DNA from: Collinsella sp. An2
Lineage (GTDB): Bacteria; Actinomycetota; Coriobacteriia; Coriobacteriales; Coriobacteriaceae
Assembly (NCBI RefSeq): GCF_002160065.1
Contig: NZ_NFJW01000003.1
Span: forward strand, 62,001-126,000
Reading direction: 5' to 3'
Length of the DNA stretch: 64,000 nt
The notes below the pieces were generated by a model. That model saw only the letters and a list, made by a program, of their open reading frames with translations, made no database searches and had not been told where the DNA came from. Below, in pieces: positions 58,056 to 60,413 of the stretch. Position 1 is the stretch's first letter. Each line of letters starts with the position of its first letter. The translations under genes and the position numbers were made by a program.

Positions 58056-60413
58056 CTACGCGGACTTGGGTGTAGATGTCTTTTTTGTCGTGTTGGACGT
58101 TTTCGTAGTCTTAGTAGTGCGCGATGTGCTCTTTGCCGTGCTGGCCGTCTTGGACGAGGTGGTCGCAGACGCCTTGGTCACGGTCTTTTTGGCCGCAGCG
58201 GGCTTGGCCGCGGCGGTCGATACGCCGGTGGCCTTTTTGGCCGTGCTCGCCTTGGTCGCAGTCTTCTTGGCGCCGGTCGCCTTCTTGGAGGTCGAGGCGG
58301 CGCTCTTCTTGGTCGAGGTCGTTGCCTTCTTGGTCGTGGCCTTCTTCGTGGTGCGCTTCGGCTTCTTCGGTGGCACGTAGGAGCTCGGTCCCACGCGCTT
58401 CAGGACCACGCCGGCAAGGCCCGGGACGCTGAACGTCACGGACTCATCGCACCCGTTCCAGGGATACGGCTCGCTCGAGCACACCTTGCCCTTGAGGTTC
58501 TTGAGCTCGTAGCCGCTGCCGCCGAACTCCGGATCGTCGGAGTCGAAGATGACCTTCCAGTCGCCCTCGCGCGGCACGCCGACGCGATAGGTCTCATAGG
58601 ACGCCGGGTCGAAGTTGATGAGCACGACCAGGTCGTCGTCAGGGTCCTCGCCATGGCGCACGAACGAGATGATGGACTGCTGCGAGTTGTTCGCGTCGAT
58701 CCAGGTGAAGCCGTCTTCGGTGTAGGCGCGCTGCCAGAAGGCGGGCTCATCGAGGTAGAGCTTGTTCAGCGCCTTCACGAACTGCTGGTGATGGCGGTGC
58801 GTCTCGTATTCGTCGACGAGGAACCACTGGATGGACTCGTAGTAGCGCCACTCGATGAACTGCGCGATCTCGTTGCCCATGAAGGAGAGCTGTGCGCCCG
58901 GGTGGGTCATCTGGTAGAAGACGAGCGTGCGCAGGCCGGCGAACTGGCGCCACCAGTCACCAGGCATGCGGCCCATGAGCGAGCACTTGCCGTTTACAAC
59001 CTCGTCGTGGGATAGCGGCAGCACGAAGTTCTCGTTGAAGGCATACATGATCGAGAAGGTGAGGAGCCGGTGGGCACCGGGACGCCAGGGGAAGTCGGTC
59101 TGCATGTAGTGCAGGGTGTCGTTCATCCAGCCCATGTCCCACTTATAGTGGAAGCCCAGGCCGCCTTCCTCGGGCGGATAGGTCACGAGCGGCCACGCGG
59201 TGGACTCTTCGGCGATCATCATGACGTCGGGGAACTCGCGCCCCACCGCGGCGTTGACCTGGCGGATGAACGCGGATGCATCGAGGTCTTCCTCGGTGCC
59301 GTACTTGTTGAACTTCTTCTGGCCGGGGTCGTCGACGCCAAAGTTGAGGTACAGCATGCTCGACACGCCGTCCATGCGGATGCCGTCTGCGTGGAACATC
59401 TCGATCCAGAAGAGGGCGTTGGAGACCAGGAAGCTGCGGACCTCACCGCGGCCGAAGTCAAACTTGTGCGTTCCCCAGTTGGGATGGATTTCGCGCTCGA
59501 ACAGCATATGGCCGTTGAAGGTCGCGAGCCCTTCCTCGTTGGCGCAGAAGCCGCCGGGCACCCAGTCGAGGATCACGCCGATGCCGGCCTGGTGGCAGGC
59601 ATCGACAAAGTGCATGAGCTGTTTGGGCTCGCCGTAGCGGGCGGTGGCGGCATAGTACCCGGTGGGCTGATAGCCCCACGAGCCGTCAAAGGGGTGCTCC
59701 ATGACCGGCAGCACCTCGATGTGCGAATAGCCCATCTCCTTCACGTAGTCGACGAGCTCGACCGAGAGGTCGTCGTAGGTGTAGACCTCGCCGCGCTGAG
59801 CGGGGAAGGGATCGCCCGGTCCGGGGTAGTTACCGTTCTCGTCGGGCTCGCCCTGCGGCTCGTCGCCATGGCGCTTCCACGATCCCAGATGGACCTCGTA
59901 GATGTTCAGGGGCTGCTTCATGTGGTCATGGGTGCGGCGATGCTCGAGCCATGCGCCATCGCCCCAGCTATATCCGGTGATATCCATGAGCCGCGAGGCC
60001 GTGCCGGGCGCCTGCTCGGCGTAAAACGCATAGGGGTCGGCCTTGTACAGCAGGTCTCCCGTGTCGGTCTCGAGCACAAATTTGTAGAGGTCGCCCTGCG
60101 AGAGGCCGGGGACGAACCCCTGCCACATGCCGCTTTTCGCAATGGGGTAGAGCTCGTTGGCCTCGGGGTCCCACTCGTTGAAGTCGCCGACCACATGAAC
60201 GCTCTTGACGTCGGGTGCCCAGACGCAGAAGTGCCAGCCCTCGACGCCGTTCTGCACGTCGGGATGAGCGCCCATCTTCTCCCAGCTGCGCTGCCATGTG
60301 CCGTTGGCGAACATATAGATATCGTCATCGGTCATGATGAGGACCGGCTTCTGGGGAGGGGTCCCCGGTGCGGTCGTTGCCTGCTCAGATGGTGCTGGGA
60401 CGTTCTTCTTCAT
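58056..60413 (-). CDS. glgB: 1,4-alpha-glucan branching enzyme with basic low-complexity tail
   Basis: This 785-residue GH13 enzyme adds alpha-1,6 branches. It has an N-terminal CBM48-like domain (GWHFCVWAPDVKSVHVVGDFNEW), then the barrel with nucleophile in GIRMDGVSSMLYL (near 346), acid/base in MIAEESTAWP (near 400) and LPLSHDEVVNGK (near 468). The core ends near residue 678. A further 107 residues are almost only Lys, Thr, Ser and Ala (KKPKRTTKKATTKKATTSTK). ATG 60413 is taken as start; ATG 60422 and TTG 60434 in frame are possible. It is the first gene of the glycogen cluster. Confidence 0.93.
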   Translation of the reverse strand: MKKNVPAPSEQATTAPGTPPQKPVLIMTDDDIYMFANGTWQRSWEKMGAHPDVQNGVEGWHFCVWAPDVKSVHVVGDFNEWDPEANELYPIAKSGMWQGFVPGLSQGDLYKFVLETDTGDLLYKADPYAFYAEQAPGTASRLMDITGYSWGDGAWLEHRRTHDHMKQPLNIYEVHLGSWKRHGDEPQGEPDENGNYPGPGDPFPAQRGEVYTYDDLSVELVDYVKEMGYSHIEVLPVMEHPFDGSWGYQPTGYYAATARYGEPKQLMHFVDACHQAGIGVILDWVPGGFCANEEGLATFNGHMLFEREIHPNWGTHKFDFGRGEVRSFLVSNALFWIEMFHADGIRMDGVSSMLYLNFGVDDPGQKKFNKYGTEEDLDASAFIRQVNAAVGREFPDVMMIAEESTAWPLVTYPPEEGGLGFHYKWDMGWMNDTLHYMQTDFPWRPGAHRLLTFSIMYAFNENFVLPLSHDEVVNGKCSLMGRMPGDWWRQFAGLRTLVFYQMTHPGAQLSFMGNEIAQFIEWRYYESIQWFLVDEYETHRHHQQFVKALNKLYLDEPAFWQRAYTEDGFTWIDANNSQQSIISFVRHGEDPDDDLVVLINFDPASYETYRVGVPREGDWKVIFDSDDPEFGGSGYELKNLKGKVCSSEPYPWNGCDESVTFSVPGLAGVVLKRVGPSSYVPPKKPKRTTKKATTKKATTSTKKSAASTSKKATGAKKTATKASTAKKATGVSTAAAKPAAAKKTVTKASATTSSKTASTAKSTSRTTKTTKTSNTTKKTSTPKSA

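Follow-up and report, generated by a model that had tools for sequence, protein, structure and literature searches.

The closest described parallels to the arrangement reported here are bacterial proteins that join a functional core to a lysine-rich, disordered end resembling histone H1. AlgP and PhaF have DNA-binding KPAA tails, which position polyphosphate and PHA granules, respectively (PMC9239181, PMC13052382). AlgP of Pseudomonas aeruginosa carries a disordered, 154-residue C-terminus of KPAA repeats and is needed for even granule spacing (PMC9239181), and PhaF and PhaM (Pseudomonas putida, Cupriavidus necator) combine a storage-polymer end with a Lys-rich, H1-like end (PMC13052382). In Actinobacteria, lysine repeats of the same kind are found at the disordered C-termini of TopA, HupB and Ku, where they stabilise DNA contact and raise processivity (PMC7398561), and in a survey of prokaryotic low-complexity regions those rich in Lys were linked with DNA binding (PMC6821194). 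Little work has addressed the placing and sharing of glycogen particles by bacteria: glycogen goes unmentioned in a review of bacterial organelle positioning from 2025, and our full-text search on the tethering of bacterial glycogen granules to the nucleoid found no paper.

Here, we analyse the glycogen cluster of Collinsella sp. An2 within a 64,000-nt stretch of its genome (the window). All genes of the cluster lie on the minus strand, in the order glgB (58056..60434), glgP (55564..57987, TIGR02093), glgC (54304..55449, NF003670), glgD (53193..54299, TIGR02092) and glgA (50644..53115), followed by a debranching-type GH13 and 4-alpha-glucanotransferase fusion (46975..50277, from domain matches), which is a single 1100-residue frame and has no tail here. 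GlgB, the 1,4-alpha-glucan branching enzyme, is a 792-residue frame, although a later ATG may be its start codon. It contains CBM48, the GH13 core and a C-terminal all-beta domain (Alpha-amylase_C), passes the equivalog cut-off (NF008967, E 7e-242; TIGR01515) and is 97% identical over its core to GlgB of Enorma phocaeensis, which places the genome in Enorma. GlgA (823-residue frame) is a glycogen synthase of the ADP-glucose type, with a GT5 domain above the TIGR02095 and NF001898 (E 6e-194) cut-offs. The complete catalytic cores and the operon order are those of ordinary bacterial GlgB and GlgA; what sets the two proteins apart is a K-rich tail, which none of the 30 best-scoring GlgB proteins of other Actinomycetota carries.

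The Pfam and NCBIfam domains of GlgB stop near residue 680, and the tail comprises residues 686–792 (58059..58379). It consists of 25% Lys, 28% Thr, 19% Ala and 16% Ser, contains no Asp or Glu and has a net charge of +29, so that the Lys/Thr/Ser/Ala-rich end of about 107 residues after the enzyme core, noted in the first-pass annotation, is borne out by both composition and domain limits. Its codons (AAG, ACC/ACG, GCC/GCG) resemble those of the core (GC3 0.82 versus 0.88), and this codon usage, together with conservation in many genomes, rules out a wrong frame or an assembly artefact. The GlgA tail is bipartite: an acidic, Pro/Glu/Ala-rich part of 103 residues (51319..51627, net −27) precedes a basic, Lys/Thr/Ala-rich part of 224 residues (50647..51318, net +36), which ends in VSAARK...RR. 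The proposed similarity of the two tails thus extends to the second part of the GlgA tail but not to the first. AlphaFold predicts coil throughout the GlgB tail (pLDDT 25–48) and in both tails generally (pLDDT mostly 25–50, below 50 in both GlgA parts); the input comprised 16 sequences and the cores were modelled with middling confidence, and we used the models for tail disorder alone. These tails share with those of PhaF and AlgP their length, disorder, Lys-richness and strong net positive charge. KPAA-type tandem repeats homologous to those of PhaF and AlgP are absent, however; the GlgB tail is an irregular run of K, T, A and S with short imperfect tandem repeats, which also occur in the GlgA tail. 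AlgP, moreover, is a separate protein and no synthase, and PhaF is a phasin on PHA whose DNA binding has been shown, whereas GlgB and GlgA are polymerising enzymes for which DNA binding is predicted.

To place these tails within the proteome, we surveyed stretches covering 39% of the same genome (around 840 genes) and added three whole-genome pattern scans, whose patterns are not exhaustive. Among 700 sampled ORFs, the net charge of the last 107 residues was highest in GlgB (+29; runner-up, +21), and in 22,219 protein windows only GlgB and GlgA had at least 20 Lys and at most 2 Asp or Glu per 100 residues. A BLAST search with the GlgB tail against the genome missed even the GlgA tail, low-complexity searches being insensitive. 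A strong Lys/Thr/Ala/Ser/Pro segment was present in four proteins of the 39% sample: GlgA, GlgB, topoisomerase I (TopA) and an amylosucrase (L238:16521-18953, G000:C17), which turned up blind. The core of the last matches amylosucrase structures (E 8e-132), and its extension, of around 200 residues rich in Lys, Ala, Thr and Pro, is N-terminal. Amylosucrase builds alpha-1,4-glucan from sucrose; three of the four proteins are therefore glucan builders. The TopA segment is C-terminal and, of all the tails found in the genome, comes closest in composition to those of GlgB and GlgA. The pattern scans added weaker segments in two proteins: FtsQ (L391:1138-2880, G000:C45), where a long Lys/Ala/Pro-rich segment is N-terminal, and the DNA translocase FtsK (L344:1-1563, G000:C4), where it is shorter. 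Many unrelated proteins with the same tail were thus mostly not found, the exceptions besides the three glucan enzymes being TopA, FtsK and FtsQ, and the survey and scans together rule out that such tails are widespread in this proteome. We also observed that HU/IHF family proteins (PF00216) have no match in this genome (99.9% complete), whereas 9 of 14 control genomes match; its nucleoid may thus be without HU.

Because DNA proteins encoded in this genome have similar segments, and because of the published parallels with AlgP, PhaF, TopA, HupB and Ku, we favour a reading by analogy in which H1-like cationic disordered tails would keep the enzymes that build glucan at the nucleoid, perhaps together with nascent glycogen; we put its probability at roughly 0.4. 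In actinobacterial TopA, HupB and Ku the repeats are fused to DNA enzymes, and TopA of this genome has such a tail, whereas in GlgB, GlgA and amylosucrase the segments are carried by builders of glucan.

The composition of the tails is compatible with any polyanion, and disordered, lysine-rich segments have RNA, polyphosphate and acidic proteins as further ligands, a point that we count against DNA tethering. The tails could accordingly be generic polyelectrolyte bristles that keep the enzymes soluble, or could recruit them to ribosomes, RNA or polyphosphate, with no nucleoid tether. Rho and ribosomal protein L31 of this genome likewise have basic low-complexity parts, although of a composition unlike that of the GlgB tail; in L31 (L230:1197-1640) this is a C-terminal extension of 75 residues rich in Ala, Lys and Glu. 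The nearest composition in the genome is nevertheless that of TopA, and the tails do not track RNA enzymes generally, so we regard this explanation as fairly unlikely.

We collected GlgB and GlgA jointly from around 80 Coriobacteriales genomes plus named relatives, and assigned the names Coriobacteriaceae and Atopobiaceae to two family groups through matching named records. Across the ~80 genomes, extra C-terminal residues amount to at most 1 in GlgC, 2 in GlgP and 8 in GlgD, so these three proteins are tail-free well beyond the window, and the earlier suggestion that tails are limited to the polymer-building enzymes is supported, the tailed amylosucrase included. A basic GlgB tail of 25–269 residues is present in most Coriobacteriaceae and Atopobiaceae, some of the latter having AAKKP-like tails, and a few genomes (L189, L190, L179 and L211) have very short ones (10–16 residues). 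By contrast, the GlgA tail (102–336 residues) is, among Coriobacteriales, confined to Coriobacteriaceae, and there it is absent from one genus (g5; G114 and G187), in which GlgB is tailed and GlgA has just 4–13 extra residues. In a thinned tree set of 66 Coriobacteriales rows, 26 have both tails, 35 the GlgB tail only, 1 the GlgA tail only and 4 neither, and on the tree a single GlgA tail gain maps to a 27-row clade with full support. On this distribution, the GlgB tail is old, reaching across Coriobacteriaceae and Atopobiaceae, and the GlgA tail was gained later, once within Coriobacteriaceae. The amylosucrase extension is patchy: it occurs in several Collinsella-like genomes, in genus g5 and in one genome of another genus group, g11, and is missing from the sister Enorma species and from most g11 genomes. 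Several Clostridia/Oscillospiraceae metagenome-assembled genomes from gut and rumen (L109, L110, L115, L120 and L121) have a GlgA with its own Pro/Glu/Lys-rich or Lys-rich tail, mostly with no tail on GlgB; these are apparently gains separate from that of Coriobacteriaceae.

Whether a genome has one of the two tails is uncoupled from whether it has the other. No association between them was found in phylogenetically independent pairs, which, with the many rows tailed on GlgB only and the Clostridia tailed on GlgA only, rules out strict co-occurrence. The GlgB tail therefore cannot need a tailed GlgA, and the shared function by strict co-recruitment put forward in the first-pass annotation fails, since the GlgB tail exists where GlgA has none. 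Tail lengths do covary within the 27-row clade (r = 0.53, p = 0.004, 26 independent contrasts), also at constant GC (r = 0.52, p = 0.005). Together with the opposite charge blocks of the tails and a conserved motif at the GlgA terminus that hints at a binding partner, this covariation favours electrostatic co-assembly, in which the acidic part of GlgA would pair with the GlgB tail and the basic GlgA part to form a condensate of synthase and branching enzyme on the glycogen particle. The wide occurrence of the GlgB tail in Atopobiaceae and genus g5, where GlgA is tail-free, and of tailed GlgA beside tail-free GlgB in some Clostridia speak against it; the distribution leaves co-assembly possible solely as a late addition in Coriobacteriaceae, and as an account of the tails we consider it unlikely.

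The tails evolve much faster than the cores. Between two Enorma species, core identity is 96–97% and tail identity 57–62%, and dN/dS is 0.25–0.37 in tails versus 0.03–0.06 in cores. The K+R fraction of the tails nevertheless holds at 0.29–0.33 (CV 0.13–0.17; for T, CV 0.63). Lysine was replaced by glutamate at 1 of 73 sites in GlgB tails, compared with 17 of 59 for T to A, a change of the same mutation class (p = 3e-6), and at 17 of 144 in GlgA tails, compared with 113 of 386 for changes between A and T (p = 2e-5); these counts are column states rather than events on a tree, and low-complexity sequence is difficult to align with certainty; the p values should accordingly be read as indicative. 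Judged from these patterns, the positive charge of the tails is kept by selection while filler residues drift. Amid the divergence of the rest of the tail, 30 of 39 Coriobacteriaceae sequences keep the motif at the extreme C-terminus of GlgA (VSAARKTTTRRRS in the window, 50647..50685), and such conservation suggests a specific partner or signal. Non-adaptive growth of low-complexity sequence, through slippage in a GC-rich genome with tolerant protein ends, would account for the short imperfect tandem repeats, the low tail identity between the Enorma species, the patchiness of the amylosucrase extension and the correlation of GlgA tail length with GC. It is hard to reconcile with the depletion of Lys-to-Glu changes, a dN/dS near 0.3, a constant charge density, the retention of the tail through Coriobacteriales on builders only and the conserved GlgA terminus, and we consider it improbable. 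A regulatory tail, in which lysine acetylation or Thr phosphorylation would switch polymer synthesis by energy status, draws on the K/T/S-rich composition and on the acetylated lysine repeats of mycobacterial HupB and Ku (PMC7398561), but site-like conservation is absent within the tails, the GlgA terminus excepted, making it very improbable.

We thus return to nucleoid tethering. The tails would be intrinsically disordered polycations of the histone H1 or lysine-repeat type, selected for positive charge, and their ligand would be a cellular polyanion, chiefly nucleoid DNA; DNA as the ligand, tethering and partitioning are what we infer from the comparisons above. The core end of GlgB is expected to bind the storage polymer, given its CBM48 and catalytic domains, and binding of DNA by the tail, with positioning of granules, is plausible by analogy. 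While the catalytic core grips the growing alpha-glucan, the tail would anchor the enzyme, together with the glycogen particle in formation, to the nucleoid, and particles would thereby be dispersed and shared out at division, in the way that PhaF and PhaM serve PHA granules and AlgP those of polyphosphate. The tails would act independently of one another, with GlgB as the original bearer and with GlgA and amylosucrase as later recipients; the cationic disordered segments of the three glucan builders were acquired at different protein ends and at different times. We count against tethering the patchy amylosucrase extension, the few very short GlgB tails and the segment on FtsQ, a division protein. 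The literature searched yielded nothing on the localisation of glycogen in Collinsella or Enorma.

In its broadest form, the proposal is that Coriobacteriales position and partition glycogen through H1-like tails fused to GlgB, GlgA and amylosucrase, with synthesis taking place on the chromosome, which would make this the first nucleoid-tether system for glycogen; we advance this tentatively, as rather doubtful. Common human gut bacteria, including Collinsella, Enorma, Olsenella and their relatives, carry a tail on their glycogen-building enzymes that is selected for its charge, and, if the tethering reading is true, these bacteria would have a previously undescribed way to position glycogen.
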